From Candidatus Zhuqueibacterota bacterium (GTDB lineage: Bacteria > BS750m-G25), in NCBI GenBank assembly GCA_016783505.1, contig JADHWK010000040.1, positions 1 through 19,538 on the forward strand: DNA of 19,538 nucleotides, written 5' to 3'. Of the stretch, positions 2,438 through 19,521 are shown in pieces (the stretch's first letter is position 1; the number at the start of each line of letters is the position of its first letter). The notes beneath the pieces were generated by a model. It worked only from the letters and a program-made list of their open reading frames with translations, searched no databases and was not told where the DNA came from. Both the position numbers and the translations under genes were made by a program.

Positions 2438-2965
2438 ACCCCATCCTCTTCAACCTAATAGACAGAAAAAGCGGCTAAAGGTTTAAAGGCACCCGGGAGA
2501 ACTAACCGTACCCAGGCACCTTTTTTATAAAAGGTACGCCACGGTGGGGACATTCAACTTATTATTAAACGAGGAGAGCAATCCCAAAACTTCGGGAGTT
2601 TACCCCGAAACTTCGGGGTTGCATTGAAAAAGCAGGGCTTTTTCACTCCGCCATCGTTGCTAAGTGTTTAATGTGCATGCTTATTTAGAAACTTCGTATA
2701 TCTGCCTGAGTAGTTGTAATTAAAACCCAGCAGCGGGTCCGTGTCCCGGCGACCCAGTACGTAATAAAATATTCCTTCCTAATCTTTATTTCTCATCTTT
2801 GTTCCTCGGTCTTTATTCCTTCCTATCTTTAATTCTTGTTTTTCTTGTGCTTCCCATACAAAAAATCCTTCCCGGAAGGAAGGATTAAAAGATCAGGGGC
2901 TGACTGATTTTTCAAAGTGGACATTACAACTCGCCACCGCACATTAAAAACTTGCGGAATTCGGG
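2438..2965. other. Gene-free stretch between the ECF sigma gene and the PorV-like gene
   Basis: About 530 bp without a credible gene. Contents: a perfect ACCTTT/AAAGGT palindrome at 2518-2535, a CCCCGAA-AC-TTCGGGG palindrome at 2603-2618, and the terminator at 2860-2886. The sigma operon promoter must lie here (2438-2600), but I see no box pair I would defend. Confidence 0.6.
2860..2886 (-). terminator. Rho-independent terminator of the PorV-like gene
   Basis: Minus strand: AATCCTTCC and GGAAGGATT pair over 9 bp around a 5-nt loop, followed by six T. It lies about 80 bp past the stop codon at 2966. Confidence 0.8.
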
Positions 2966-3886
2966 CTAAAATTGAGTACTGAAGGAAATAAGGTGTTGGC
3001 CTCCCAGTTCGCCGAAGGACTGGAAGGCATAATCGAGGATGAAACTTCGAAAGAGAAAGCCCGTTCCCACCGTCAGTCCTCCGAAGCGGGAGGTGCGGGT
3101 GCCCACGTCCAGGTCCTGGGCCCGTGAGAGGCCATACCCCAGCCGGAGTCGGAGATTATCGGTGAGGGTAAATTCCCCCCCGAAGTTGCAGCGCAGGCCG
3201 GCATCGGAATGCTGGTTAACCTCCCCGTTCAAAAGCATGGGCAGATGGGCCAGCCGCTTGGCAAAACCCACCCCATAGGTCAAGGGCAAATCCTCTTTGG
3301 TGTCCACAAAGGCCTTCTTAACCCTGCCCAGATTGAAAACCCCGACCCCGACATCCAGCCCCTCCATGGCGGTGTGATAGATTCCCCCCAGGTCAAAGGC
3401 GTAGGCCGTTGATGTATAGGATTCTATTTTCGACTGAACCCATTTAACGGTAAAGCCCAAAAGTATGTCCTCCCCGGCCTTGGTACCGTAGGCAAAGCTC
3501 AGTGCCATGTCCTGGGCCCCGAAATCCGGAGAGGGATTGCCGTCCTCGTCGAAGCCCTCAAAATCCCCGTAGTCCTGATACTGGACGGCTATTCCAATAG
3601 TTCCCCATCCCGGCCGGTTTTCCCCGTAGGCAACAAATCCTGAGGTGAAATCCAAAAGCAGGTTTCCCAGGGTAGCGGAGACTACCCGTCCTTCGATCTC
3701 TGCCAGCCCAGCCGGGTTGTAATGAATGCTGTAAATGTCGCCGGGAATAGCTAATTGCGCCCCAGCTAAAGCCGCCCCCCGGGCGCTGACATCGCTGCGA
3801 AGAAACCCATACCCCACCGTGCCTTGGGAAATCCCCAGGTTAACGCTAATGGCCAACAAGGTGAAGCCAAGAAAAATTTTCTTCAT
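2966..3886 (-). CDS. PorV/UPF0164-like outer-membrane beta-barrel protein
   Basis: 306 residues. Signal peptide at 1-20 (MKKIFLGFTLLAISVNLGIS). The mature start has the family pattern: GFLRSDVSARGAALAGA, then a YNPAGLAEIEG segment near residues 56-66. The rest alternates short glycine- and aromatic-rich strands, and the chain ends in phenylalanine (ISFSTQF), as outer-membrane barrels do. Proteins of this group (PorV/PorQ, UPF0164) resemble FadL-type barrels and in some phyla serve type IX secretion. Nothing else in the window belongs to that system, so only an outer-membrane protein is claimed. A GGGAGG site precedes the ATG. It has its own promoter and terminator and is therefore monocistronic. 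Confidence 0.8.
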   Translation of the reverse strand: MKKIFLGFTLLAISVNLGISQGTVGYGFLRSDVSARGAALAGAQLAIPGDIYSIHYNPAGLAEIEGRVVSATLGNLLLDFTSGFVAYGENRPGWGTIGIAVQYQDYGDFEGFDEDGNPSPDFGAQDMALSFAYGTKAGEDILLGFTVKWVQSKIESYTSTAYAFDLGGIYHTAMEGLDVGVGVFNLGRVKKAFVDTKEDLPLTYGVGFAKRLAHLPMLLNGEVNQHSDAGLRCNFGGEFTLTDNLRLRLGYGLSRAQDLDVGTRTSRFGGLTVGTGFLFRSFILDYAFQSFGELGGQHLISFSTQF

Positions 3887-4746: not shown

Positions 4747-4969
4747 AAGTTATGTTTAAACTATTGTATTTTTCAATGATGTAGAGTTTTGGAGTGCATC
4801 GTTCATCTAATAATCGTATATCGTTTATCCCGAAGCTTCGGATAGCCTGTATCGAAGCCCGGTTTTGCCGAATACCGAATGCCGTTACCGAAAACCGATA
4901 CGGGCGGCGTCACCGATAAACCAGTTACGATTGTAGTCTGATTAATTTTTACAATAATTTAGTTATGTA

Positions 4970-5590
4970 TTAATGAGCACGAACAATCTCTTTAACCTTC
5001 ATCAGTCGGGTGAGGTTGGAGCGCTCCAGCTCACTCAGTTTGTCGCCTATGAACCTGATGGTCTCCTCTAAGCTTGGTATCAGAATATATTCAAGGGCGT
5101 TCACCCGGCGCCTGGTGGTCTCCAGCTCAGCGGCGAGTAGTTGCAGGGATTTTTCCCTCTCCGCCATCTTGATCATCAGGGGCAATACCCCATAAAAAAT
5201 TCCCAGGGCCAGATCCAGATTTCCTGAAGTGTCCGCGAATCCGTAGGAGAACTGGCCATCCTGCCATTCTAACTTAAATTCGGGAATCCTTAAATTCATA
5301 ACCGGCAGCACGGAGACCTTAAGCTGTGCCTTTTTCTGGGAAAAGGACAGGGCCCCTTCCAGGATCTCCCTGTCCATTTCAAAGCGAGCGGACAGAAAAG
5401 CCCGGTATCCCTCGCTCAGCTTCTCCTCTACCTCTCCCCTCAGTTCCCTGGTCTCTTTTACCAGGGCCAGGAATCTACGCATCAGCTCCTCTTGTTTGTC
5501 CTTCAGGAGCTTATGCCCCCTTCGGGCAAAGGCCAGCCTCCTCCGCAGACGGAGCATCTCCATTCGGTTAGGATTGACCCTCAATCTCAT
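4970..5590 (-). CDS. atpD: V/A-type ATP synthase subunit D
   Basis: 206 residues, the usual length of V-ATPase subunit D (NtpD/AtpD), the central rotor shaft in the A3B3 head. The N-terminal pattern is diagnostic: NPNRMEMLRLRRRLAFARRG, then HKLLKDKQEELMRRFLALVK. So is the C-terminal NALEYILIPSLEETIRFI near residues 165-182. Both ends form the long coiled coil that turns inside the head. It comes last in the F-A-B-D order, as expected, but is separated from subunit B by 1.4 kb carrying two attC-like cassettes, and its leader starts right after the last attC site. A 9-bp stem (5627-5635 with 5658-5666) sits in that leader. The ribosome site is weak (GGGAAG). Confidence 0.95.
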   Translation of the reverse strand: MRLRVNPNRMEMLRLRRRLAFARRGHKLLKDKQEELMRRFLALVKETRELRGEVEEKLSEGYRAFLSARFEMDREILEGALSFSQKKAQLKVSVLPVMNLRIPEFKLEWQDGQFSYGFADTSGNLDLALGIFYGVLPLMIKMAEREKSLQLLAAELETTRRRVNALEYILIPSLEETIRFIGDKLSELERSNLTRLMKVKEIVRAH

Positions 5591-5694
5591 AATCCGTCTT
5601 CCCAGATTTTAATGATATTCATTGATAAATCCGAAATTCGAAGGTTCGGGATCGTGATTCGGATTTTTCAATGTCCTCTGTTTTGCAACGAAGT

Positions 5695-5761
5695 CTCAAA
5701 CGTAAAGCTCAGCCGCCGTGGCCGCGGAGCGGACACGGTCGGCTGAAGCGATAAGTTAGGG
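5695..5761 (-). other. attC recombination site 1 (after the small membrane-protein cassette)
   Basis: Read on the minus strand, the ends are CCCTAAC (R'', 5755-5761) and GTTTGAG (R', 5695-5701). Between them is a 14-bp stem: 5707-5720 pairs with 5734-5749. It has two unpaired extrahelical bases (5739 and 5746), both on the high-coordinate arm, and a 13-nt loop (5721-5733). Unpaired spacers separate the stem from the end boxes. This is the R-UCS-L-EHB-VTS plan of integron attC sites. R' departs from GTTRRRY at its fourth base and at its last base. Confidence 0.75.
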
Positions 5762-6173
5762 AATTCAAATTAATCTTTACCCCGCAAACGTATCTTTAAA
5801 ATTGTTTGCGGGAGATGCCCCGTAATACCTGCTATAGCTACTAATGATAAAAATATCAATAATGCAGAAATTCCTACGCTAATTTTCGATAAATCACCGA
5901 TGCTGTTTATAATCTTGTAGATAAAATAAATACTTAACCACCCAATTGCTGAACCAATAAAATTAAACCAAAATTGAAATAGACCCGATATAAATAACCA
6001 TTCCCACGTAGATTTATTTTTCAAGCCCTCAGAAGGCGTTTTAAAATCAAGATATGATTTACTTAAGGCTCTTATCGCAAAATATAACGTAGTAAATATA
6101 CTTACGACAATAAACGTCATCTTCATACTTAGCACCTCTGTTTAAGGATTATATGAAATACGAAATTGCCTAA
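5701..6173 (-). mobile_element. Integron-type gene cassette carrying a small membrane protein
   Basis: Bounded by the G/TTAGGC cut position of attC site 2 (6174/6173) and the cut position of attC site 1 (5701). The cassette's first seven bases (GTTAGGC box) are complementary at 6 of 7 positions to its own R'' box (CCCTAAC), as expected for a cassette that circularises. It contains one gene and one attC site, in the usual gene-then-attC order. Confidence 0.65.
5770..6126 (-). CDS. Small three-helix membrane protein, cassette cargo
   Basis: 118 residues from ATG at 6126, chosen because AGAGGTG lies 6-7 bases upstream; an earlier in-frame GTG at 6135 overlaps that site. About three membrane helices: residues 1-20 (MKMTFIVVSIFTTLYFAIRA), about 44-73 (LFISGLFQFWFNFIGSAIGW and onward), and about 84-104 (VGISALLIFLSLVAIAGITG). 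The C-terminus is basic (ILKIRLRGKD) and probably cytoplasmic. No family recognised. It is AT-rich compared with the flanking ATPase genes. It ends 9 bp before an attC-like site and starts 41 bp after another, which marks it as cassette cargo. Small membrane proteins of unknown function are frequent in integron cassettes (established for other arrays). Confidence 0.75.
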   Translation of the reverse strand: MKMTFIVVSIFTTLYFAIRALSKSYLDFKTPSEGLKNKSTWEWLFISGLFQFWFNFIGSAIGWLSIYFIYKIINSIGDLSKISVGISALLIFLSLVAIAGITGHLPQTILKIRLRGKD

Positions 6174-6242
6174 CGCTCCGCATAACCGGCTGGCAATGGA
6201 GCGCAGCGGAATTGCCAGTCCGAGTTGATGCGGTTGTTAGCT
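6168..6242 (-). other. attC recombination site 2 (best site in the window)
   Basis: Minus strand: R'' is AGCTAAC (6236-6242). R' is GTTAGGC (6168-6174), a perfect GTTRRRY core. A 20-bp stem lies between: 6178-6197 pairs with 6211-6233, interrupted only by three extrahelical single bases (6219, 6223, 6227), all on the same arm. The loop is 13 nt (6198-6210). Short unpaired spacers sit between stem and R boxes. Extrahelical bases confined to one arm decide strand choice in integron attC sites, so this structure is hard to explain as an ordinary hairpin. Confidence 0.88.
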
Positions 6243-6810
6243 GCAAATATGCTTAGCTTAAACTATTAGCTACAAAGTCTTGGTATTCAGTAAATAGTTC
6301 CCAGGTTTCAACATAACCAAAGAACTTCAATTCTAAATGCTTGCCATCCATTGAGGCATCAATTGTTCTGCCTTTCCAAGAGACAGGCAGAAGGCTCTTG
6401 TCATATTTCTTAAATTCAAACCTGAAATTATGAGAAAGACAGTTCCTAATCATTCGTGCAAATTGATACCATGATTCTGCTTTGAATGCAGAATCCTGTT
6501 TCGTCTTATCGCAATAATTCTTGATAAGCTCAAAAGACTCCTTGATAAGAGCTCGAATCTGCGAAGTAAGAAATTCCTTAATCGCGATATCACGGTCAGC
6601 AGATTTCATCAGAAGATTCTTGACCTGTTTGAATTCAACCGTGTAGGTTCCAAATTTGGCGTGGCTCTCTTCCAAAATTGGATAGACCTTTTCGTTTGAA
6701 AAAAGAGAAATTGCCGCCAGCCCAAGAATGTAGTTGTTCTTGGCATTCTCCAACTGACTCATAAGTTCCTTTTTTGTCATATGCACTCCGAACTATTTTT
6801 GTGCAGCTAA
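6174..6810 (-). mobile_element. Integron-type gene cassette carrying a HEPN-like protein
   Basis: The cassette runs from the cut position in GTTAGCT at 6811/6810 to the G of the next site at 6174. Its two ends match exactly: TGCAGCTAAC at 6802-6811 is the reverse complement of GTTAGCTGCA at 6236-6245 (10 of 10). In integrons the R'' box of a cassette pairs with the first bases of that same cassette in the excised circle, and this is what is seen. Confidence 0.75.
6253..6780 (-). CDS. HEPN-like protein (candidate RNase or toxin), cassette cargo
   Basis: 175 residues from ATG at 6780; GGAG lies 5 bases upstream, better placed than for the in-frame GTG at 6786. The protein is mostly helical. 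Residues 107-119 (FARMIRNCLSHNF) contain R112-x4-H117, the R-x4-6-H signature of HEPN-domain RNases, placed after a long helix, as in that fold. A beta-rich tail follows (FRFEFKKYDKSLLPVSW, then GKHLELKFFGYVETWELF). HEPN proteins act as RNA-cleaving toxins or defence effectors, or as nucleotide-binding partners; which applies here is unknown. No adjacent antitoxin gene is evident. It is AT-rich and sits between two attC-like sites. The HEPN call rests on one motif plus helical context. Confidence 0.6.
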   Translation of the reverse strand: MTKKELMSQLENAKNNYILGLAAISLFSNEKVYPILEESHAKFGTYTVEFKQVKNLLMKSADRDIAIKEFLTSQIRALIKESFELIKNYCDKTKQDSAFKAESWYQFARMIRNCLSHNFRFEFKKYDKSLLPVSWKGRTIDASMDGKHLELKFFGYVETWELFTEYQDFVANSLS

Positions 6811-6857
6811 CATATAATAGACGGCCGAAATGCCGTGTTATAACACTGCGTTTAGGC
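6805..6857 (-). other. attC-like site 3, degenerate (array edge next to subunit B)
   Basis: Minus strand: R'' GCCTAAAC (6850-6857) and R' GTTAGCT (6805-6811) flank a short stem: TATAA (6813-6817) pairs with TTATA (6838-6842), and ACGGC (6821-6825) with GCCGT (6832-6836), around a 6-nt loop. The unpaired bases are not on the arm seen in sites 1 and 2, so it may be a decayed attC or a non-canonical entry site. Its R' supplies the start of the HEPN cassette. Confidence 0.5.
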
Positions 6858-7006
6858 CTTATAAAAACCATTTATTAACTTGGGTTTCATAATAAAAATC
6901 CTAATGTTATGAACAATGATTGTTTTTTTTAGACTGCAACTTTCCCAGTCTAACAATTATGGTGCTTCTCTGTTTTTGATCATCTGTTTGATTTTCCAAA
7001 ACTGTA

Positions 7007-8412: not shown

Positions 8413-8485
8413 CAGCATAAAAAAAGGTTTTGCGAAGTAAAAATCTAGGTGAGCCCTGATCTATTGGAACGAACCTTTTATGCTG
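8413..8485. repeat. Hairpin repeat H, copy 1 (overlaps the stop of the PIN-like gene)
   Basis: A 73-bp element starting CAGCATAAAA and ending TTTTATGCTG, so its ends form an inverted repeat, with a further AAGGTT/AACC match inside. It is about 70% identical to copy 2 at 9874-9944 in the same orientation. The stop codon of the gene at 8478-9824 lies inside its GCATAA end. Confidence 0.75.
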
Positions 8486-9824
8486 GGTCATTGGAAGTTA
8501 CTGTAATATTACTTTTTTTTTGCACTCTATAAAGCGTTGTGTATGGCTCACGCCAACTCTCACCATAAACTTCATTCACTTTATCCAAATGTTCCCTGGG
8601 GGCTCTTAATTCTATATCATTCAAATAATTTAAAAATTCATCTTTTATGTTTTGTGAGAAAACCTTTGTTCCATAATCAATGGCATCGTGTAAGGGTTGT
8701 TCATTTAAATACGTTTGGCATTCGTTATCTATGAACATGGCATTGCAATATGGTAATAAGACTGATATAATTTCAATATCATTAGCCATTCCTTGATTTG
8801 GTGGTTTCTTTCTGCCGGTGGCAGCTTTACGTGCTAATGCTGCATACAACATGGAAGAAATTTTAATAAATGGGACATCTTTTAGAGAAGAAGAATCCAG
8901 ATATTCAACGGTCTTCGGCCATATATCTGAATCCTGGATGCCAGCCTTTCTAAAAGCGTCGTGTATTGAATGGATAAAAACAATAGACGACGGAGGGAAT
9001 ATGTCATTCGCTGTTAGCTCAACATGCCCTATGGATATTTCTGCGGATTTTTTTAGATAATTTAAGTATATTTGTAAAGTTACCCTACCAAATGCCATAC
9101 TTTCTTTTTCAAACCAGTAATCAAAAGTTTTATTTCTTTCAGATTGCCATTGCTTAAAAAGTTTACTTAATCCTTTATGCATTTCTTCTCTGTTTTTACG
9201 GAGCTCATCTATCCAATCTAAACCATATTGTATATTCACTGAGATAATTAATCTATCTTGCCAAGCATTGATATTTCCATTAACTACGGTATGCACGTCT
9301 AAATTTAATGCCTTATCCGCCTTCCCAGAAATCCAATTTATTGCATGTTCGTATATCTGAAATCTTTTGATGGTTTCATGATCGTAAAACCTGACATCAT
9401 GAGATAGTAGTTCATACATCCGCTTTAAAGGTTTAAAATATGGTGACAAAAGAGACTCATCAGTGTGAAACCCTGAATCAGGACATGTGATAAGCTGCAA
9501 TTTACAAAGGCTATCTAACCTTTCAAAAAGCCTTACCCAAAATTCATCTAATGTTCCTTTCTTGTATGGTTTCGTTTGAGGGTTAAGCGCTTTCATCATG
9601 TTGCTAATCGCAAATTGGTCAACATAAACAACCTTCTTGTTTAATTCTGGAAGGGGATAGCTTGATGCGGGTTCAGTTCCACGTGGGAAGAAGCAGTCTT
9701 TACATCTTCTACAATAATGATGGTTGCAAATCATTAGAATGCCAAAGCTCTTTTTTCCGCATTTTGGACATTTAATGTATGGTGGAGAGATAAATGTTCT
9801 TGGATCAAAATTAATAGTTTTCAT
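8478..9824 (-). CDS. Zinc-ribbon protein with PIN-like nuclease domain (putative)
   Basis: 448 residues. The N-terminus is a cysteine-rich zinc ribbon: C19-x2-C22-G, then C33-x-H-H-x-C38-x2-C41-x2-C44. After it comes VVYVDQFAIS with D69, a beta strand ending in an acidic residue followed by helix, the usual start of a PIN-like fold. Far downstream ANDIEIISVLLPYCNAMFID carries D349, E351 and D366, fitting the later acidic residues of PIN nucleases. The roughly 280 residues between form a helical insert. PIN-like domains are metal-dependent ribonucleases common in toxin and defence systems; activity here is inferred. The coding region is AT-rich, and two direct copies of repeat H bracket it. 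The ribosome site is weak (AAAGGA, 13 bases upstream of the ATG). Confidence 0.6.
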   Translation of the reverse strand: MKTINFDPRTFISPPYIKCPKCGKKSFGILMICNHHYCRRCKDCFFPRGTEPASSYPLPELNKKVVYVDQFAISNMMKALNPQTKPYKKGTLDEFWVRLFERLDSLCKLQLITCPDSGFHTDESLLSPYFKPLKRMYELLSHDVRFYDHETIKRFQIYEHAINWISGKADKALNLDVHTVVNGNINAWQDRLIISVNIQYGLDWIDELRKNREEMHKGLSKLFKQWQSERNKTFDYWFEKESMAFGRVTLQIYLNYLKKSAEISIGHVELTANDIFPPSSIVFIHSIHDAFRKAGIQDSDIWPKTVEYLDSSSLKDVPFIKISSMLYAALARKAATGRKKPPNQGMANDIEIISVLLPYCNAMFIDNECQTYLNEQPLHDAIDYGTKVFSQNIKDEFLNYLNDIELRAPREHLDKVNEVYGESWREPYTTLYRVQKKSNITVTSNDPA

Positions 9825-9873
9825 TTTGGTTTCAACATCCTTTATCTATCAGAGCAATTTTCAATAATGTTTC

Positions 9874-9944
9874 CAGCATAAAAGAAGTTTTTACTAAGCA
9901 AAAATTTTGGGGTGAGTGCCGTAAGGCACGAACCTTTTATGCTG
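9874..9944. repeat. Hairpin repeat H, copy 2 (upstream of the PIN-like gene)
   Basis: A 71-bp element with the same CAGCATAAAA...TTTTATGCTG ends as the copy at 8413-8485 and the same direction. It has an internal GTGCC-GTAA-GGCAC hairpin. It is immediately followed (9946-9963) by the terminal box of the neighbouring HEPN-like unit, an arrangement resembling an attC stem next to its R'' box. No GTTRRRY box is found at its other end. Confidence 0.7.
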
Positions 9945-9945
9945 T

Positions 9946-9963
9946 GTTAACCGATGCGGCCGC
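9946..9963. repeat. Terminal inverted box of the DUF4145-like unit, 3' side
   Basis: On the plus strand GTTAACCGATGCGGCCGC; its partner at 10663-10680 is GCGGCCATTTCGGTTAAC. They are complementary at 15 of 18 positions and enclose exactly one gene (9979-10644). This resembles the R''/cassette-start complementarity seen at 6236-6245 and 6802-6811. Confidence 0.6.
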
Positions 9964-9978
9964 TGATTTTCATTTAAG

Positions 9979-10644
9979 TCATTTAAGATATTCACTAGCA
10001 AATCTCTGTACCCATTTGACCATATCCTTAACATCCAACTCGGTAAATTGCTCAAACTTAGCATGATCAGCATTATTCCGAATATCTGCTTTGGCAGTAA
10101 TTTCCTTCTGCGTAAGCTTATTGTATGCTCCATCCCTTGCTAAAGAAGTATTGAGTGCGTCTATTTTAGTCTTTTTGGGATAGGGTATATTCCGTTGATC
10201 ACACATTTTCCGTAGCGTATCTTCCAGGACCGCCCCTGTGAGAGATGCAGCTGGAACATAATACCCTTCATTGAGCAGTGTTTCGGCTTGTTCTATAAAA
10301 CTACCAAGTAGATCTGCTCTTATCATAGCCCGTATATCAAATAGAAAATCCTCTGAGAAGTCACGGTATGCCGCTTCTAACACTCCATAACATTGATGGT
10401 AATAAAAACTACTGCCGGATGCACGCTTATCTTCAGCCAAACGCCTCATTTGCTGATAATGTTCGCTTTCTTCACCACAAGTTCGCTTAATGAGATTTAA
10501 ACTTTCGGTGCGGAATCGTAGATAGTCAACATCCGATGGATGCCTATCCCACTGCCTTCCATCCCAACCACATTCCTGAAAGACTCTCTTCCCTTCTGCC
10601 AAAAGCTTTTCAAACTTTTCTTTGATTTTCTCATTCATGCCCAT
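9979..10644 (-). CDS. DUF4145/HEPN-like protein
   Basis: 221 residues, soluble and helical. The C-terminal half looks like the DUF4145 branch of the HEPN superfamily: SFIEQAETLLNEGYYVPAAS, LTGAVLEDTLRKMC, a linker with PYPKKTKIDALN, then KADIRNNADHAKFEQFTELD with R189-x4-H194, the R-x4-6-H motif. The N-terminal 110 residues are unassigned. DUF4145 domains are often found in restriction and defence proteins and in stand-alone genes of unknown role. A good AAGGAG site lies 6 bases before the ATG. The gene is enclosed by an 18-bp imperfect inverted box pair and by hairpin repeat H on its 3' side. Cleavage activity is not shown by the sequence. Confidence 0.65.
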   Translation of the reverse strand: MGMNEKIKEKFEKLLAEGKRVFQECGWDGRQWDRHPSDVDYLRFRTESLNLIKRTCGEESEHYQQMRRLAEDKRASGSSFYYHQCYGVLEAAYRDFSEDFLFDIRAMIRADLLGSFIEQAETLLNEGYYVPAASLTGAVLEDTLRKMCDQRNIPYPKKTKIDALNTSLARDGAYNKLTQKEITAKADIRNNADHAKFEQFTELDVKDMVKWVQRFASEYLK

Positions 10645-10662
10645 TTAATACTCCTTGTTTTA

Positions 10663-10680
10663 GCGGCCATTTCGGTTAAC
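10663..10680. repeat. Terminal inverted box of the DUF4145-like unit, 5' side
   Basis: Partner of 9946-9963 (15 of 18 complementary). It lies about 20 bases upstream of the ATG at 10644 and overlaps the start of the spacer repeat at 10676-10807. It also pairs locally: ATTTCGGTT with AACCGAAAT across 10 bases. Confidence 0.6.
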
Positions 10681-10807
10681 TTAAAACAACCGAAATACTT
10701 CGTTTACCCTTTTAGATAGTATCCCATTAGATAATAAATATCTAACAGGACAGAGCATCTAACGAAGTATATGCTCCAAATTAATTTATTTTACAAAACC
10801 CAACTGA
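10676..10807. repeat. Spacer repeat S, copy 1 (132 bp)
   Basis: Three blocks recur in the same order and spacing class at 11438-11571. Block 1 is 10676-10714 (33 of 39 identical to 11438-11476). Block 2 is a GCATCTAACGRRGTNTATGCT hairpin core (10753-10776). Block 3 is the AAACCCAACTGA end (10796-10807). The part 10729-10785 is also about 86% identical to 12603-12661. Read on the minus strand, block 2 contains CGTTAGATGC, which fits the GTTRRRY integron R' consensus. Confidence 0.65.
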
Positions 10808-10816
10808 GTGGATATT

Positions 10817-11395
10817 TTAGCTTGACTTCGGTCTTTTAAAAGATCTTAGGCCTAAAAGCTCATACATATTTTGTTCCATTAGCATTTTTAATAATTCTAT
10901 ATTCTTTAACCCTTTTTGTAAAGCATTCTCATAAGTAATATCGAAGTTTCCCTTTTTTAGGGAATTCCAGCTCATATTATATTTCTTACTGCTAAGAAGG
11001 GAAAAATTCTCCTCTGAAATATCATCTCGATCTAACTTAAACAATTGTCTTATCCGAAAATTATCTCCCAACCTCAAAATAATAAGTTCATTAAAGATTT
11101 GCCGCTCAACTTTATCCTTAGATAACCAACAGCCAACAGGATTACTTTCTGATTTTCTAATAGTTTTTACTTCAATCTTCTTCCCAGTCTTAGGGTCAAT
11201 ACAATCAAATCCTTTTTCAGATGGGTTAGTATTTATTTTATAATTAAAAAGAATGGAAACATACCATTCACCAATTTCTGGAATAACCTTTCTCGTTCGA
11301 ACGATTTTAAGCTCTTTTAGTCTTTCTTCGATTTTATTATACTTATCAAGAAGGGAGAGCACAACTTTTATCTTTCGAAATCTATCGTCTTTCAT
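10817..11395 (-). CDS. PD-(D/E)XK-like putative nuclease
   Basis: 192 residues. The segment E40-I-G-E43...G62-F-D64-C-I-D-P-K-T-G-K-K-I-E75-V-K77 has the E...D...E-x-K layout of the PD-(D/E)XK restriction-endonuclease fold. An N-terminal helix carries E43, then beta hairpins carry the D and the E-V-K. The remainder is basic and helical. Stand-alone proteins of this kind occur beside restriction-modification systems, but no methylase is present in this window. The coding sequence is strongly AT-rich compared with the ATPase genes, and it lies exactly between the two copies of spacer repeat S, which suggests acquisition as a unit. There is no clear ribosome site, so the start is less certain. 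Nuclease function is inferred. Confidence 0.6.
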   Translation of the reverse strand: MKDDRFRKIKVVLSLLDKYNKIEERLKELKIVRTRKVIPEIGEWYVSILFNYKINTNPSEKGFDCIDPKTGKKIEVKTIRKSESNPVGCWLSKDKVERQIFNELIILRLGDNFRIRQLFKLDRDDISEENFSLLSSKKYNMSWNSLKKGNFDITYENALQKGLKNIELLKMLMEQNMYELLGLRSFKRPKSS

Positions 11396-11437
11396 GAATT
11401 TGCCCTATTGCAATTAATAAACTTCGGGCTTTTCCGC

Positions 11438-11571
11438 TTAAATTAAAATAACCGTAATAGTTCGTTTACTCTATTATATAGCTAGCATCTAACGGGGTTT
11501 ATGCTCTCATATTGATATACCCGCCTGCCGAAGTCCCGGGACGGCGGGCAGGTTTTGCGAAACCCAACTGA
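11438..11571. repeat. Spacer repeat S, copy 2 (134 bp)
   Basis: Same three blocks as 10676-10807, with different filler. Here a GC-rich CCTGCC/GGCAGG hairpin (about 11524-11552) sits between blocks 2 and 3. Together with copy 1 it brackets the gene at 10817-11395. Confidence 0.65.
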
Positions 11572-11597
11572 TAGGAATAAATTCCTATCCTAATTTA
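11563..11597. repeat. Direct repeat T, copy 1, with perfect palindrome
   Basis: CCCAACTGATAGG followed by an AT-rich palindrome (GATAGGAAT-AA-ATTCCTATC, 11570-11589), ending at the guaA stop codon. About 30 of 35 bases match the copy at 15010-15044, in the same orientation. Confidence 0.6.
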
Positions 11598-12563
11598 CTA
11601 AATAGCCTCAATAGTTGAAGGCGGTTTTTTGGTTATGTTGTAAGTAACACTTACAACCCCTGATACTTCCGTTGTTATCCTTTCTGCTAATCTATCCAAA
11701 GTTTCATAGGGAAGTCTGGTTGGTGATCCCGTTATTGCATCTTTGCTATCCCAGCATCTTACCTCTATCTGCAAGCCATAATCCCTTTTCCCTTCTCTAA
11801 CACCGGTGACTCTATCTTCATGCAAGATTGCCAAGTATTGAAATGCCTTTGTATTACATAATTCTTCTTCAACAATTTTCGTAGCTTTTCTTACAATTTC
11901 TACTCTTTCCGGCGTGATTTCTCCTATTATTCTTGCCGCTAAGGCGGGGCCCGGAAAGGGTGGCCTCTTATATATTTCCTCTGGGAGATCCAGAACCTTC
12001 GCCACCCTTCTTATCCCTGATTTTCTAAGCTGGATTAAAGGTTCTATTACTTTATATCCATATGTCTCTTCTGTATCAATTCCAAGCTGTGCTAAGATAT
12101 TGTGCTGTCTTTTAATGCCTGCCACAGTTTCTTCTACATCGGTTAAATTTGTCCCCTGCAAAAGATATTTCGCACCGCTCTCCATTACTAAATTACCAAA
12201 AACATCTTTGTAAAATGCCTGGGTAATAGCTTCTCTTTTTTCTTCAGGATCTGTGAGACCTCTTAATCCGTCAAAAAAGATCTCATTGGCATCAAAAAGT
12301 TCAACATTTACTCCCATATCTTCAAACAATGAAATGATATGTTCAGGTTCACCCTCTCTCATTATACCGTTATCAATAAAATACGTTTTGAGCCTATCAC
12401 CTAAGGCTCTATGCCCTAATATAGTTACGGTTGAAGAGTCAACCCCACCAGACAAAGCATTGACAGCTAAGCCAGTTCCAACGATAGAGGAGATCTCTTC
12501 CACTTTTAGTTTTATAAATTCTTCAGGATGTAAATCCTCCGTTTTTATTTCCTCAATTTTCAT
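11598..12563 (-). CDS. guaAB: GMP synthase, ATP-pyrophosphatase subunit (GuaA C-terminal type, no glutaminase domain)
   Basis: 321 residues. The PP-loop ATP-pyrophosphatase motif SGGVDSS is at 38-44. It is followed by GMP-synthase landmarks: FIDNGIMREGE, LLQGTNLTDV, GIKRQHN, then GYKVIEPLIQLRKSGIRRVA, RPPFPGPALAARIIGEITPE and the C-terminal dimerisation domain ending KKPPSTIEAI. It would aminate XMP to GMP using ATP and ammonia. The fused glutaminase domain of ordinary bacterial GuaA is absent, so this is the separate-subunit form known from archaea, and the partner glutaminase is not in the window. The C-terminus departs from the usual KPPGTIEWE ending. An AGGAGGG site precedes the ATG. It is AT-rich and sits inside the insert splitting the V-ATPase operon, so a transferred or paralogous copy is possible. 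Confidence 0.85.
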   Translation of the reverse strand: MKIEEIKTEDLHPEEFIKLKVEEISSIVGTGLAVNALSGGVDSSTVTILGHRALGDRLKTYFIDNGIMREGEPEHIISLFEDMGVNVELFDANEIFFDGLRGLTDPEEKREAITQAFYKDVFGNLVMESGAKYLLQGTNLTDVEETVAGIKRQHNILAQLGIDTEETYGYKVIEPLIQLRKSGIRRVAKVLDLPEEIYKRPPFPGPALAARIIGEITPERVEIVRKATKIVEEELCNTKAFQYLAILHEDRVTGVREGKRDYGLQIEVRCWDSKDAITGSPTRLPYETLDRLAERITTEVSGVVSVTYNITKKPPSTIEAI

Positions 12564-12602
12564 TATACCCTCCTAATTAGTTTGAAATAATCTAATCCTT
12601 AT

Positions 12603-12661
12603 AGATAGTAAATATCTAACTGGACGAGAGCATCTAACGGAGTTTATACTCCCAAATTAAC
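12603..12661. repeat. Spacer repeat S, partial copy 3
   Basis: 59 bp about 86% identical to 10729-10785 (six substitutions and two single-base indels), including the GAGCATCTAACGGAGTTTATACTCC core. Blocks 1 and 3 of the full spacer are missing. It lies directly upstream of guaA. Confidence 0.6.
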
Positions 12662-12732
12662 ATGTTTTTCCTGGCAACATCGGGATTAATGCACGCTTAT
12701 CGGTGAAGCTTTACTCTCGTTGCTTTCTCCTC

Positions 12733-13563
12733 CTAACTTTTACGGGTACTAAGCAGGGCCATAATAACACCTCCTAAACCAAGCACCGAGGCGACTACCT
12801 TGACCAGCCAGCCCAGAAAGGGCACCCAACCAACTAACCCCAGAATTATTATCCCCCACAACGTCCCCCAGAGCATATTAAGATCGGGCTTCTTCAGGGC
12901 TAAAGCCATCCTATTGCCGATAAGCTGGGCCACCGCAATGTAACCTACCAGAAATGCACAGCCGACCAGAATAATTTCCACCGGTATCAATACTATACCC
13001 ACCACCGATACGGCCAGTAATATTACTAACGGAACGATCAGCACCATCCCCAGAAGCCCCCACAAGAATACTTTCAGAGTGTTTTTCTCCACCGCAGTCG
13101 AAATTTTGCCGATTGGCTTCGGGATAATCGCCACAATCAACAATGCCAGGGCTAAAAAACCGATAAAAACGACAATTCTAAAAGGCCAGAACAACCCCAG
13201 GCCTATACCTTTGCAAACAGATGTAACAGCCCAAGGAATACCAATAATGTCAACCTCAACTTCATCCCCGTATACTATTGCTCCTTCCTCCTTTTTTATG
13301 GTTCCCCCTACCGAAACCGCATCCCCGTCCACTACTGCCCTCGGACCCAAGATAACCGAACCCCCCACCGCCACGGCATCACCATCAACCACACCGTTTA
13401 CGGTAACATCCCCGCCGATGGCCACCGCATCGCCTACCCTCATCCCTTCTTTAACCACAAGATCGCTGCCAATCTTAACTATGTCCTTAACCCCTGCTCC
13501 AGCTATGGGAAGAAATGCCAGGGACAACCCCAAAAGCAGCAAAAAAACAATCCATTTTTTCAT
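12733..13563 (-). CDS. Bactofilin-like beta-repeat protein with membrane helices
   Basis: 276 residues. Signal peptide at 1-23 (MKKWIVFLLLLGLSLAFLPI, then AGA). Residues about 40-100 hold a short right-handed beta-helix of six- to eight-residue steps (VGDAVAIGGDVTVNGVVDGD, then AVAVGGSVILGPRAVVDGD), as in polymer-forming bactofilin-like domains. The C-terminal two thirds hold four or five membrane helices, among them FRIVVFIGFLALALLIVAII and LLGMVLIVPLVILLAVSVVG. The beta-helix is predicted outside the cytoplasm, unlike classical cytoplasmic bactofilins. The role is unknown. An AAGGAG site lies 9 bases before the ATG. The GNAT-like gene ends 32 bp upstream, so the two are probably co-transcribed. 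Confidence 0.7.
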   Translation of the reverse strand: MKKWIVFLLLLGLSLAFLPIAGAGVKDIVKIGSDLVVKEGMRVGDAVAIGGDVTVNGVVDGDAVAVGGSVILGPRAVVDGDAVSVGGTIKKEEGAIVYGDEVEVDIIGIPWAVTSVCKGIGLGLFWPFRIVVFIGFLALALLIVAIIPKPIGKISTAVEKNTLKVFLWGLLGMVLIVPLVILLAVSVVGIVLIPVEIILVGCAFLVGYIAVAQLIGNRMALALKKPDLNMLWGTLWGIIILGLVGWVPFLGWLVKVVASVLGLGGVIMALLSTRKS

Positions 13564-13595
13564 CTTGCGTTTCTCCTTTCTATCTTCATAGCATA

Positions 13596-14711
13596 TTACT
13601 CCAGCGGCATTTCATAGACCCGGTATTTCCGCACCAGCTCCATTCCCAATTTAAGGAGGGCGCCCTTCATGGCGAAATTGTCCTCCAGCACGTAATTCGC
13701 CTCCAGACGAGCACCCCTCGGTTTGAGCGCTTCGTAGGTACGAAGGTAGAGCAGCGTATCAATGCCCCGACGCTGATATTCTTTGACGATGCCCAGAGCC
13801 CAGAGACGATAGCTATTGATCTTCTTGATTCCCTTCAACATTCTGAAGAATACAAAAGGAAACAACCGGCCATTCAGTTTTTTGAGAATCACATTAATGT
13901 CAGGGAAGGTGATGGAGTAGCCAATGGGCTCGCCTTTGGCTTCTACGATGAAAACTATACTGGGGTCTAGGATCCGCTTGACTTCCTTGGCGATGCTGGT
14001 GGCTTCGGCATCAGTCACCGGGGAGAATCCCCAGTTTCCATCAATTGAGCGATTGGTCAGCCCTGTTATGATGCGGATGTCCCGGACTAGGTGCTTTGGG
14101 TCCACTGTACGCACCCTGATGCCATACTTATTTTTAATTCTCTGGGAGTATCTCTTAAAGCGCTCGGGCAGCTCCCATACGGCCATATCTACCGCGTAGG
14201 CTTCCAGGTCTTTGGCCTTGGTCAGGCCGAAGGCCCCCATTTGATTGTTGTAATAGGGCGGGTTGTAGGGTGACATAAGGACTGGCGAGTAATCGAACCC
14301 TTCGATGATGAATCCTGCATTCTGGACCTCAAAATTAATGGGGCTGGGGCCGCGCATAGTCGTCATCCCCCGGGCCACTAACCAATCCCGGGCCACGGTC
14401 AGGAGGGCCCGGGAAGTATCGGTGCAATCCACACACTCGTATGAGCCGAAACTGCCTATCTTCGTTCCCCAATATTCATTGGCATGACGATCAATAAAAA
14501 CTGCTATCCGTCCCATTAGCTCTCCGTCATCATAAGCCACAAAGTAGGCATAATCGCAATGTAGGAGCATCGGATTCCGGCGGCCGTCAAACATCTTCTT
14601 CTGCTCGCTCCTTAAAGGCGGCACCCAATAGGGATCATTTCGGTACAATTTATAAGGGAGTTCCAGAAAGCGCCGAAGTTCCCGCCGTGAAGTTACCTCT
14701 CTAATCTCCAT
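13596..14711 (-). CDS. GNAT-fold acyltransferase-like protein (YghO-like)
   Basis: 371 residues. The N-terminus resembles a widespread family of roughly 370-390-residue GNAT-fold proteins: FLELPYKLYRNDPYWVPPL, then PMLLHCDYAYFVAYDDGELM and GRIAVFIDRHANEYWGTKIG. A central SPYNPPYYNNQMGAFGLTKA segment follows. The C-terminal half holds an acetyl-CoA-binding type motif (ALGIVKEYQRRGIDTLLYLR) where Q-R-R-G-I-D corresponds to the R/Q-x-x-G-x-G/A loop. It is probably an N-acyltransferase; the substrate is unknown. No strong ribosome site is seen before the ATG. It is less AT-rich than the nuclease-like genes further on, so it may have a different origin within the same insert. Confidence 0.75.
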   Translation of the reverse strand: MEIREVTSRRELRRFLELPYKLYRNDPYWVPPLRSEQKKMFDGRRNPMLLHCDYAYFVAYDDGELMGRIAVFIDRHANEYWGTKIGSFGSYECVDCTDTSRALLTVARDWLVARGMTTMRGPSPINFEVQNAGFIIEGFDYSPVLMSPYNPPYYNNQMGAFGLTKAKDLEAYAVDMAVWELPERFKRYSQRIKNKYGIRVRTVDPKHLVRDIRIITGLTNRSIDGNWGFSPVTDAEATSIAKEVKRILDPSIVFIVEAKGEPIGYSITFPDINVILKKLNGRLFPFVFFRMLKGIKKINSYRLWALGIVKEYQRRGIDTLLYLRTYEALKPRGARLEANYVLEDNFAMKGALLKLGMELVRKYRVYEMPLE

Positions 14712-14767
14712 TTATTGATAAGGTGTTATACGCAACGAATGAGTGGGTGTAGTGAGCGAGGAATCGC

Positions 14768-14974
14768 TTATTTCCCAAATGCTTTGTATGTTGGTTTTAT
14801 CCCTGCTAACACGCCAATTACAGCATACCAATACCAGTCTAAACTAAGCAACGGCTCCCAAAGTTTTGCTATCATTAGAACAAAACCAGCACCGCAAAGT
14901 TGTAGTAGTTTTACGTCTACCCAGCTTAATTCTGCCTTTTTTACTGTTGAATTTACCCAGGTTATAAAACCCAT
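14768..14974 (-). CDS. Small two-helix membrane protein
   Basis: 68 residues from ATG at 14974. A strong AAGGAGG lies 10 bases upstream; the alternative GTG at 14983 would be only one base from it. Two hydrophobic segments are visible: LLQLCGAGFVLMIAKLWEPL and about WYWYAVIGVLAGIKPTY. The short, basic C-terminus (KAFGK) is probably cytoplasmic. Family not named. It is the first gene after V-ATPase subunit A in reading order, beyond a 434-bp hairpin-rich gap, and 56 bp upstream of the GNAT-like gene. Confidence 0.7.
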   Translation of the reverse strand: MGFITWVNSTVKKAELSWVDVKLLQLCGAGFVLMIAKLWEPLLSLDWYWYAVIGVLAGIKPTYKAFGK

Positions 14975-15408
14975 ATTTTTCACACCTCCTTATTGTTTGG
15001 ATTCGCTAGCCCAATTGATAGATATAAATTCCTATCCTAATCTAAATGGGAATCCCGAATATTCGGGATAAAACATCTCTAAAAACATCTAATCCAATTG
15101 ACCAGTCAGGCATCCGGGGCTGTGGTAGAACTATCGCGATTGATAATTTAGGGGTTATGTTTAGAACCGCTCTAAAGAGCGGTTCTGGTTAAATGGCTAT
15201 TAAAGAAAGCTTTAACCAGTCCGCTGTACCCGGTCCCAAGATCGCTTTGCGACTAGGGTAGGAGGCTACGCCCAACCTTATCCCGATGCTTCGGGATAGG
15301 TTCTGCCCCTTGCTGGGCAGGCGAGATCTTCAGACGGAAAATCAACAATTTTTGGGTTGTGCCACAGGCCCATTCGACTGATTGGATTTACAAATAACCC
15401 TTAGATTG
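14975..15408. other. Hairpin-rich gap downstream of subunit A
   Basis: No coding frame I would accept. It contains the perfect palindrome ATCCCGAATATTCGGGAT (15052-15069), a 10-bp stem AGAACCGCTC/GAGCGGTTCT with TAAA loop (15163-15186), an 8-bp stem TATCCCGA/TCGGGATA (15279-15298) and repeat T copy 2 (15010-15044). None has a proper T-run on the minus strand, so none is a clear terminator; they could be folded elements left by insertions. Confidence 0.6.
15010..15044. repeat. Direct repeat T, copy 2
   Basis: Matches 11563-11597 at about 30 of 35 positions in the same orientation, 3.4 kb away. The two copies enclose guaA, the bactofilin-like, the GNAT-like and the small membrane-protein genes. 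Confidence 0.55.
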
Positions 15409-17498: not shown

Positions 17499-17804
17499 TT
17501 ACAAAATATCAGCACCAACCGCTTTCCTAACGGCCCTTTTGATCTCTTCTGTTCCCAATCCCTGGCTTCCCCTAAGATTGGGAAGGACGGTAATGCTGGG
17601 CAAGGTTTTATCCCTGATTTCATCAATCTGCTCTCGGCAGGCCCTGAAAACCCCCTCGGTGACGAAGATGATGGAGTAATTCCCTGTCAAGGCCCTGGCT
17701 AAGACCTCCTTCTCCTCCCCGTCCTTTACAAAATAGAGTGATAATCCAAAGGCTTTAAAGGCCCAGATAGAATCCCTATCCCCCACCATGGCGATTTTAG
17801 ACAT
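17499..17804 (-). CDS. atpF: V/A-type ATP synthase subunit F
   Basis: 101 residues from ATG at 17804; a TTG at 17810 is less likely. Typical subunit F, the small stalk protein that binds the D shaft. It starts MSKIAMVGDRDSIWAFKAFG, has a central YSIIFVTEGVFRACREQIDE, and ends with ITVLPNLRGSQGLGTEEIKR and KAVGADIL. The length is normal. No good Shine-Dalgarno sequence is seen, perhaps because its leader was replaced: an attC-like site ends 33 bp upstream of the ATG. A truncated second copy of its first 29 codons lies at 18986-19090. Subunits I, K, E and C, which usually precede F, are not in the window. Confidence 0.93.
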   Translation of the reverse strand: MSKIAMVGDRDSIWAFKAFGLSLYFVKDGEEKEVLARALTGNYSIIFVTEGVFRACREQIDEIRDKTLPSITVLPNLRGSQGLGTEEIKRAVRKAVGADIL

Positions 17805-17836
17805 AGACAATCCCAGTTATTGCCGTTTAGCAGTTG

Positions 17837-17884
17837 AGCTAACGCGCGCGGTTTATCGCGTCGCTGTTCAGTGCCTTGTTAGGT
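17837..17884 (-). other. attC-like site after the ZIP transporter gene
   Basis: Minus strand: R'' ACCTAAC (17878-17884), a perfect RYYYAAC, and R' GTTAGCT (17837-17843). A short stem lies inside: GCG-CGCG (17844-17850) pairs with CGCG-CGC (17857-17864), with one extrahelical base at 17861 on the same arm as in sites 1 and 2, and a 6-nt loop. The spacer on the R'' side is about 12 nt but is absent on the R' side, so one arm may have lost sequence. Confidence 0.6.
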
Positions 17885-18734
17885 TTTGTTTTCATCTTAG
17901 CGGACTCTTTCCATTCCCCTCCAGCTCCTTTCGTCTGAAATCCGTGCTACGTCCAGATGGCGATCAGGGCCATAAGGCCGAACCCACACATGATGAGAAG
18001 ACTTTTACGCCAGCGGTCATGGGGTTGCTCGAAAACTTCCTGGATAATGTCGACCACCGCAACATAAAGAAACGTTCCCGCGGCAAAAGCATCAAAACTC
18101 CCCTCAAATATGGCATCCAAATTGCCCGAAAATACCGTTGAGAGGACCGTTCCGAGAATCACTCCAAAGGGAGTCATGGCAGAAAATAAGCAAATGATTG
18201 CGACATGCCTGGAGGTGGGAAAATCACTTTCTCTCAGACTGACGCCGAGCGCAAAGGCAGCCGCTCCCTTGTGTGCGATGATGGCAATGAATATGGCTAT
18301 AGATGATGCCAGTGTTGCCTCCAGCCCCAATGATGCTCCTGCGATGATTGAGTGAACCGAAAGGATGACGCAAAGCACGAAAGGGTAGACACGCCGCCCC
18401 TTGGACATCGTTCCCACATCCTTGCTTCCGCCCAATCCCGCCTTTTCCAGCAACAGCACGAGGAGAAATCCCACACCACAAATGAGAGCGGGGAAAGGGA
18501 AATCAATGTCTCCCGCAAACGCTTTGAAGTTTTCCCACGCATCCGGAAGCATGTGCAGGAGTCCGGCACCAAGGAACACGCCACCGGAAAAGGCATGGCC
18601 CAGCGTTAGCTGTCGCTTTCCTTGCTGGGACACCCTCATTCGTGTGGGCGTGATTCCCGCGAACAAACCTGCGGCAAAAATAACTAAAAGAGAAAGAATC
18701 TTGAACCAGAGTATTTCCATGATCGATGACCTAA
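17843..18734 (-). mobile_element. Candidate integron-type cassette carrying a ZIP transporter
   Basis: The unit starts at the GTTAGGT box (18729-18735, perfect GTTRRRY) 8 bp upstream of the ZIP start codon and ends at the R' of the attC-like site at 17843. The start box GTTAGGT is exactly complementary to the cassette's own R'' ACCTAAC (7 of 7). No attC site is visible on the upstream side of the start box. Confidence 0.5.
17947..18720 (-). CDS. ZIP-family divalent metal transporter
   Basis: 257 residues with about eight membrane helices. ZIP landmarks: H42-A-F-S-G-G...H56-M-L-P-D in helix 2; a glycine/serine-rich loop with few histidines; H123-S124-x3-G128 (VHSIIAGASLGLE) in helix 4; and H150-K151 (HKGAAAFALG) in helix 5. 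Helices 4 and 5 form the metal path, normally for zinc, iron or manganese; the metal here is not predictable. The start lies 8 bases after the GTTAGGT box, whose AGGT is the only Shine-Dalgarno-like sequence, so the recombination box may also serve translation (inference). The gene stands between a truncated and an intact copy of atpF and ends before an attC-like site, suggesting cassette cargo. Confidence 0.88.
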   Translation of the reverse strand: MEILWFKILSLLVIFAAGLFAGITPTRMRVSQQGKRQLTLGHAFSGGVFLGAGLLHMLPDAWENFKAFAGDIDFPFPALICGVGFLLVLLLEKAGLGGSKDVGTMSKGRRVYPFVLCVILSVHSIIAGASLGLEATLASSIAIFIAIIAHKGAAAFALGVSLRESDFPTSRHVAIICLFSAMTPFGVILGTVLSTVFSGNLDAIFEGSFDAFAAGTFLYVAVVDIIQEVFEQPHDRWRKSLLIMCGFGLMALIAIWT

Positions 18735-18985
18735 CATATTATTCACCCGCACGTTTATAAGTATTGACAATCGAATCTTATGGTTAAACTCATAAATTTT
18801 AAGTACATGGATTCATATATTAAGTCTCTACCTAACTACAGCTAATATATCATCTTCAACCTTGCTTCCAGGGTTACCCGATCTATACCAAGAGCGATCA
18901 GACACCGTTTGCAACGGTGTCTTTTAATCTCCTGTAATTTAAAAAAGTTACCTAAAACACCCGTAGGGTGTTTGATCACTTTTTG
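18735..18985. other. Gap with two hairpins upstream of the ZIP gene
   Basis: No gene. Hairpin 18900-18922 (GACACCGTT-TGC-AACGGTGTC, with a T-tail on the plus strand) and hairpin 18955-18973 (AAACACCC-GTA-GGGTGTTT). On the minus strand the second runs into TTTT and a later T-run, so it could terminate transcription coming from the cupin side. A second ACCTAAC box lies near 18830. Confidence 0.55.
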
Positions 18986-19090
18986 CTAAGCCCTTCTTTC
19001 CGCTCCGTCCTTTACAAAATAGAGTGATAACCCAAAGGCTTTAAAGGCCCAGATAGAATCCCTGTCCCCCACCATGGCGATTTTTGACAT
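18986..19090 (-). pseudogene. Truncated second copy of atpF (first 29 codons, then stop)
   Basis: ATG at 19090 opens MSKIAMVGDRDSIWAFKAFG and continues LSLYFVKDG, identical in protein to intact atpF for 29 residues. It then diverges (AERRA) and stops at 18986. DNA 19005-19090 matches 17719-17804 at 83 of 86 positions. The three changes are all third-codon-position and synonymous (Ser, Asp, Gly codons). Weaker similarity extends about 17 bases upstream of the ATG. An intact gene cannot be read here. Silent-only differences suggest the copy diverged as a working gene, for example in a related strain or paralogous operon, before being truncated by recombination. Confidence 0.85.
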
Positions 19091-19137
19091 AGATAACCGA
19101 CCTTATTATTGTTTAATGAAGAAGCTTACAGGCGCCA

Positions 19138-19521
19138 CTAGGCGTCCGGTGCAGCACCTGGATGGCCCCCTGACCTGTTTCCTTTTAGCCAAAAATCAAA
19201 CGACCGACCCGGCACGAAAATATCCAAACCAATGGAAGGTTCGTCCGAAGGATTCATGACAACATGTGGCTCTCCACTTGGAATGTAGGCAGCATCGCCT
19301 TCGCAAAGATGTTGTTCACCGTCGTTGTCCGTAATGATTGAAAGTCTTCCTTTTAGAACTACAAGAACCTGTGCGTTGGAGTGGTCGTGTCGGGGAGAGG
19401 CGTGCTTCTGTGGCTTGACGAAATGCTCAACTGAGATGTCATCTTGATTGCAAATGCTAACCCGTTTCCAGTCCTTTTCAGGTTCATAATTCTCGGCTTG
19501 GTTAAAATGAATAACCTTCAT
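19138..19521 (-). CDS. Small single-domain cupin protein
   Basis: 127 residues, a single beta-barrel cupin. Motif 1 is at 43-60 (PRHDHSNAQVLVVLKGRL), with H45, H47 and Q51 as likely metal ligands. Motif 2 is EGDAAYIPSGEPHVV, with H86. The usual glutamate is replaced by Q51. Stand-alone cupins of this size act as small enzymes (isomerases, dioxygenases) or as ligand-binding proteins; the sequence does not say which. An AAGGAG site lies 6 bases before the ATG. It stands just upstream of the truncated atpF copy, in the position where V-ATPase subunit C or E would normally be expected. Confidence 0.85.
   Translation of the reverse strand: MKVIHFNQAENYEPEKDWKRVSICNQDDISVEHFVKPQKHASPRHDHSNAQVLVVLKGRLSIITDNDGEQHLCEGDAAYIPSGEPHVVMNPSDEPSIGLDIFVPGRSFDFWLKGNRSGGHPGAAPDA

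Follow-up and report, generated by a model that had tools for sequence, protein, structure and literature searches.

Evidence that a ZIP transporter gene entered the atpC-atpF spacer of a V/A-type ATPase operon as an integron-type gene cassette

INTRODUCTION

Integration of gene cassettes outside integrons has been shown mainly by experiment. The locus described here raises the question of how a gene for a ZIP-family metal transporter came to lie between atpC and atpF of an ATPase operon, and whether it has the ends of a cassette. If the reading given below is correct, this is a natural genome, that of an uncultured bacterium, with operons reshaped by cassette integration, in which the ATPase operon would have been entered at least twice. 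The host flanks of the locus are repeated, and comparing the copies with one another is enough to fix the crossover base, with no need of a sister genome. They also raise a concrete question, namely, how tandem units that carry such flanks are formed. Should host promoters drive cassettes of this kind, ordinary operons would serve as extra integron platforms.

RESULTS AND DISCUSSION

The atpC-atpF gap is filled with foreign genes

The window, meaning the whole stretch of DNA that was analysed, is contig C53 at its full length of 19,538 bases, from a MAG of 2.5 Mb (89 contigs, 60% complete). It encodes atpF, atpA, atpB, and atpD of a V/A-type ATPase, and atpC is located near the end of a separate contig, C66. 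The two contigs have identical 139-bp ends, both inside a cupin gene, which indicates that they probably abut; the linkage rests on this one overlap. The genes first needed here are as follows:

17499 to 17810, minus strand: full atpF, the right host flank (Pfam PF01990, E = 8.3e-16)
17947 to 18720, minus strand: ZIP-family metal transporter ORF, 257 aa (Pfam PF02535 [Zip], E = 2.2e-42)
19138 to 19521, minus strand: cupin ORF, the cassette of unit 2 (Pfam Cupin_2, 3.8e-14)

The ZIP ORF also matches TIGR00820 with an E value of 3.2e-25, which is under the family cut-off, and a sequence search of the PDB gave no relatives at E ≤ 0.001. The gene order in relatives is C-F-A-B-D, and the gap between AtpC and AtpF in 73 other genomes has a median of −5 nt and does not exceed 59 nt. 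Among 81 other atp loci searched, in comparison genomes related to this one at the level of the same domain only, none encodes the ZIP protein, the cupin, the product of gene1 (a 597-aa ORF on C66), or the proteins of the cassettes between atpB and atpD. This, together with the short gap elsewhere, indicates that the C-F gap is filled here with foreign genes. Conservation of ZIP and its flanks beside atpF, which the preliminary description had named, along with failure of the attC model, as what would speak against insertion, was thus not seen. Judged by eye, the present C-F spacer bears no likeness to that of L040, the nearest relative by AtpA (77%). In L040, a PilZ-like ORF, named from reading the sequence, lies between atpF and atpA (641 to 1069) and has no attC match.

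Three tandem units repeat the host flanks

The gap contains three tandem units, which carry gene1, the cupin gene, and the ZIP gene. Each has a copy of the atpC end (about 150 nt) on one side and of the atpF start (about 130 nt) on the other. The following elements are found in the window:

18735 to 18889, minus strand: left flank of unit 3, comprising the last ~48 nt of atpC and a 106-nt spacer (135/151 positions shared with the true end of atpC on C66)
18887 to 18984, minus strand: palindromic joint P, ~95 nt, between the atpF copy and the atpC copy (83/93 identical to P on C66)
18985 to 19115, minus strand: truncated copy of the atpF 5' end, the right flank of unit 2 (repeat D1, 88%; 115/127 over the compared flank)

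Since the first of these copies the end of atpC and the last the 5' end of atpF, the ZIP unit is the last of the three, which the preliminary description had overlooked. The true end of atpC lies on C66 ahead of gene1, and a further copy is situated ahead of the cupin gene. The product of gene1 has no Pfam or NCBIfam match.

The left flanks of the three units are 89 to 93% identical in pairwise comparison (137/147, 135/151, and 134/147). They resemble one another up to GTGAATAATAT and diverge exactly at the crossover base, continuing as a^TTAGAA (gene1), G^TCGGCC (cupin), and G^TTAGGT (ZIP). On the right side, two units present ATTAAACAATAATAAGG and the ZIP unit presents GCTAAACGGCAATAAC, in each case followed by the atpF start. 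Joining of the flanks gives a predicted empty site of the form ...GTGAATAATATG^TTAAACAATAATAAGG...atpF, in which the join would read GTGAATAATATG^TTAAAC.

The order between units is truncated atpF start, P, and atpC end. The C66 copy of P folds far better than its shuffles (z = −5.0). A genome-wide search retrieved only the two copies at the atpC-atpF locus, and P was rejected as a dispersed MITE because it is confined to this locus.

The ZIP gene has the boundaries of an integron-type cassette

Two covariance models were used to examine the ends of the units. Nine attC sites from class 1 integrons of plasmids went into R1. Run on 20 intI-bearing chromosomal loci of unrelated genomes, this model gave 26 hits, from which R2 was made. 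R1 gave three matches in the window and L127 (the adjoining contig), and R2 gave exactly five, which all share the operon strand and each mark the end of a predicted cassette:

17824 to 17884, minus strand: ZIP attC site, R'' ACCTAAC ... R' GCTAAAC (R1, 15.8 bits, E = 0.023 to 0.034; R2, 21.6 bits, E = 0.0021 for 29 kb)
L127, 8916 to 9051, operon strand: attC at the end of the gene1 cassette (R2, 25.6 bits, E = 2.1e-4)
19110 to 19167, minus strand: decayed attC of the cupin cassette (R2, 14.9 bits, E = 0.11)
6167 to 6242, minus strand: attC of the first cassette between atpB and atpD, ORF 6253 to 6786 (R2, 41.7 bits, E = 1.8e-8)
5694 to 5761, minus strand: attC of the second cassette between atpB and atpD, ORF 5770 to 6135 (R2, 33.2 bits, E = 2.5e-6)

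With filters off, the ZIP site ranks third in the window with R1 (E = 0.023). In the control set, R2 gave no match at E ≤ 10 in 944 kb of atp loci from 46 other genomes; in the atp loci of 15 more (226 kb), no match was obtained at E ≤ 5 (1.17 Mb and 61 genomes in total). The models align the ZIP site and the two sites between atpB and atpD to one consensus with unpaired positions in the 5' arm. The hairpin z-score of the ZIP site is weak when taken alone (−2.27; 4/200 shuffles) and was not relied on.

The attC-like site that the preliminary description had placed directly upstream of atpF is therefore recovered by two models that were both built without it. The boundaries of the cassette follow from the models on the right and from the divergence of the flanks on the left:

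17831 to 18734, minus strand: ZIP gene cassette, 904 bp, starting with the TTAGGT that follows the crossover and ending with the G of R'
18729 to 18735, minus strand: start box GTTAGGT with crossover G^TTAGGT, where the three flanks diverge

The start box was correctly recognised from the outset, as was its relation to R'' (17884 to 17878, minus strand), which is its exact reverse complement. The right end had been misplaced. The GTTAGCT at about 17843 to 17837, first taken as R', sits in the inner L' arm and was dropped, because both models extend the site to 17824 and identify R' as GCTAAAC, with its G at 17831; the cassette consequently spans 17831 to 18734. The joins are 17831^17830 and 18735^18734, and the right boundary lies 12 to 13 nt further out than the join at 17843 that had been proposed. 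Nor is the site specially short, the attC being of an ordinary 61 nt.

Complementarity between start box and R'' is 7/7 for ZIP, 6/6 after the crossover for gene1, 7/7 and 6/7 for the first and second cassettes between atpB and atpD, and 5/7 for the cupin. R' is one base off GTTRRRY in all three tandem units (GCTAAAC in ZIP and ATTAAAC in its two sisters), and the ZIP site may for this reason no longer work. On the left, the ZIP cassette is joined precisely to host DNA at G^TT (18735/18734). At the level of sequence, insertion at a precise boundary and the kinship of the site to attC are thus established, and they support the ZIP gene as an integron-type gene cassette.

Carriage of ZIP by a transposon or MITE, with the attC-like site incidental, is hardly credible. 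The strong palindrome of ~95 nt at the unit joints, which CTTAGC bounds at either end in the C66 copy, would suit such an element, but P lies between units and not at the ends of ZIP, which match cassette boundaries and the attC models. Moreover, none of the ORFs in the C-F region was recognised as a transposase, and the genome-wide search showed no P-bounded mobile copies elsewhere.

The reading favoured here, with a probability of roughly 0.87, is that IntI put a mobile ZIP cassette at G^TTRRRY in the atpC-atpF spacer and that this site was occupied at least three times, giving three tandem units. Recombination between an attC and a genomic site would have joined the attC of the ZIP cassette to the G^TT site in the spacer, and different cassettes would have taken that site on at least three occasions. 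The orientation shared with the operon suggests that ZIP would be expressed by read-through from the operon promoter.

Cassettes at other points of the operon and of the genome

The two cassettes between atpB and atpD are of the same class, which argues that cassettes came into one operon at two distinct points. This had been suggested before and is supported by attC matches at both places. An attI-like motif, Q, precedes the first of these cassettes:

6812 to 6863, minus strand: element Q, directly before the first cassette between atpB and atpD (crossover G at 6811)

Q reads GTGTTATAACACGGC.TTT.GGC.GT followed by ..ATATG^TTAG and contains the palindrome GTGTTATAACAC. It is located directly ahead of GTTAG start boxes on C13 (twice), between atpB and atpD in the window, and on C23, C37, and C72, and it was found in none of 289 other genomes. 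Q is thus a candidate attI-like site of this lineage. The left flank at C-F has no attC match and is without Q, yet it ends in TAATATG^TTAG, like the Q sites.

Genome-wide, R2 revealed 27 dispersed attC candidates at E ≤ 1, which are spread over about 17 contigs. When 172 kb of the genome's own stretches (18 sources, the window and L127 included) was searched more closely, 40 were obtained at E ≤ 1. At three more loci, host sequence is repeated next to cassettes in a manner comparable to C-F. On C13 (L224, 14000 to 26000), cassettes lie between a radical-SAM gene and the host gene that follows it, and the array is interrupted by copied host flanks, first the right one (6648 to 6792 of L224) and then the left one (6838 to 6936), so that the order is host-left, cassettes, host-right', host-left', cassettes, and host-right. 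On C72 (L229, 30000 to 42000), nfeD and the slipin gene paired with it are kept apart by about 11 kb that contains several attC sites, and the 3' end of nfeD is present in three further copies (10797 to 11041, 4820 to 4904, and 3268 to 3346 of L229). On C44 (L122, 1 to 12000), an intI remnant with an internal deletion (2866 to 3193, covering only positions 1 to 55 and 264 to 304 of TIGR02249) adjoins a DegP-like protease gene, followed by an array with three attC sites (8845, 10249, and 11207). A 127-nt stretch starting at the end of intI is repeated there at 5419 to 5545.

No intI match was found on C53 or C66, the best match in the genome is under the family cut-off, and an intact IntI was not found in this MAG, which is 60% complete. 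The combination of intI and attI beside the array that makes a complete integron is absent at C53/C66. Catalysis may be ascribed to an IntI now lost or unassembled; this incomplete genome contains only a deleted intI remnant. On C82 (L121/L002), the C-terminal part of a Xer/IntI-like recombinase has next to it long inverted repeats resembling long attC-type sites (L002, about 715 to 850 and 1395 to 1470), where R2 gave no match.

The recurrence of repeated host flanks on C13, C72, and C44 also makes it very improbable that the locus is an artefact in which a metagenome assembler chained strain variants. The 89 contigs of the MAG, and the end of both C66 and C53 in a cupin gene with a 139-bp overlap, would be in keeping with such an error. 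However, the copies are just ~87 to 93% identical, both P joints are inside contigs with distinct sequence, and C53 alone spans the cupin end, the atpF copy, P, the atpC copy, ZIP, and atpF.

Formation of the tandem units

The most likely route to the duplicated host flanks is that copies of the locus, by then filled with different cassettes, recombined with one another, aided by gene conversion with the intact atpF. The two truncated atpF copies differ in 8 synonymous and 2 nonsynonymous codons, whereas neutral decay predicts about 22% synonymous changes (binomial, 1.9e-4). This bias points to copies that followed functional alleles, by conversion or by separate descent, although with 29 codons compared such a history is suggestive only. 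It would fit units assembled from diverged strains or species that carried different cassettes, a fragment or circle having been integrated by flank homology, as would the similar order on C13 and the repeated nfeD ends on C72. Against this stand the P joint common to both junctions, which implies that the tandem structure is, at least in part, older than the divergence, the stop codon in the C13 copy of the host gene, and the fact that no donor strain was seen. Assembly from strains in this form falls a little short of an even chance.

A tentative alternative is that the atpC-atpF junction was amplified first, giving three empty copies that each took a cassette, with the flanks decaying in place. 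One cassette per copy would then be simple, and the two occurrences of the joint of truncated atpF, P, and truncated atpC are homologous (83/93) and are the only ones, which argues that the tandem order arose once. The ratio of 8 synonymous to 2 nonsynonymous changes in this short stretch would in that case need gene conversion or the separate descent of functional alleles.

It is unlikely, though worth setting out, that in the chromosome of this lineage cassettes travel together with host flanks, each arrival at an occupied site regenerating the left and right host junctions. One gap would then become a series of units, each made of upstream gene end, cassette, and downstream gene start, read from the host operon promoter and seeded partly at dispersed attI-like motifs Q.

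Comparison with known systems

Integration of cassettes at nonclassical genomic attG sites is described by Loot et al. (2024, Nat Microbiol 9:228), as cited in PMC11023631, PMC12444791, and PMC12901181, and off-target activity of IntI and secondary sites are covered in PMC10127599. Like attG insertions as presented in those citing papers, the ZIP cassette, with its own attC, is joined precisely at G^TT, apparently away from attI and from intI. Unlike them, it is natural and lies in a conserved operon that was apparently entered at least twice, with host flanks repeated at C-F.

Clusters of attC without an integrase are called CALINs (IntegronFinder 2.0, PMC9024848), and single attC sites without one are called SALINs (PMC12690207). 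The attC sites on about 17 contigs here likewise have no nearby integrase, but several of the dispersed insertions share the private attI-like Q, and cassettes are separated by copied ends of host genes. The sedentary chromosomal integrons of Xanthomonas (PMC12444791) also combine one integron platform with attC clusters at other loci. Their CALINs occupy a few conserved loci, whereas the 27 candidates here are scattered and come between paired genes, atpC-atpF, atpB-atpD, and nfeD-slipin among them. In Delta-attI-type cassettes of class 1 and 2 integrons (PMC12901181), a piece of the recipient site is repeated adjacent to cassettes, which resembles the 127-nt repeat on C44. The repeated piece there is attI, while the repeats at atp, C13, and C72 consist of ordinary host gene sequence. 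Cassettes at nonintegron sites are therefore already known, and repeated host flanks around cassettes are unusual. A full-text literature search for operons in which cassettes occur with tandem duplication retrieved nothing but an unrelated review, which is no proof of novelty.

Other features of the window

Between atpA and atpB (8478 to 15400), the window contains several further genes, most of them of low G+C content, and some of these are separated by repeats such as AGCATCTAACGAAGTATATGCTC at 10754, 11484, and 12629. The attC model has no match in this interval, which suggests a different kind of insert or decayed sites. An Rfam search of the window retrieved tRNA only, plus one weak TPP match under the gathering score: a TPP-riboswitch-like stretch at 565 to 670 on the minus strand (28.7 bits, gathering score 54.3), with a tRNA gene nearby at 246 to 319.
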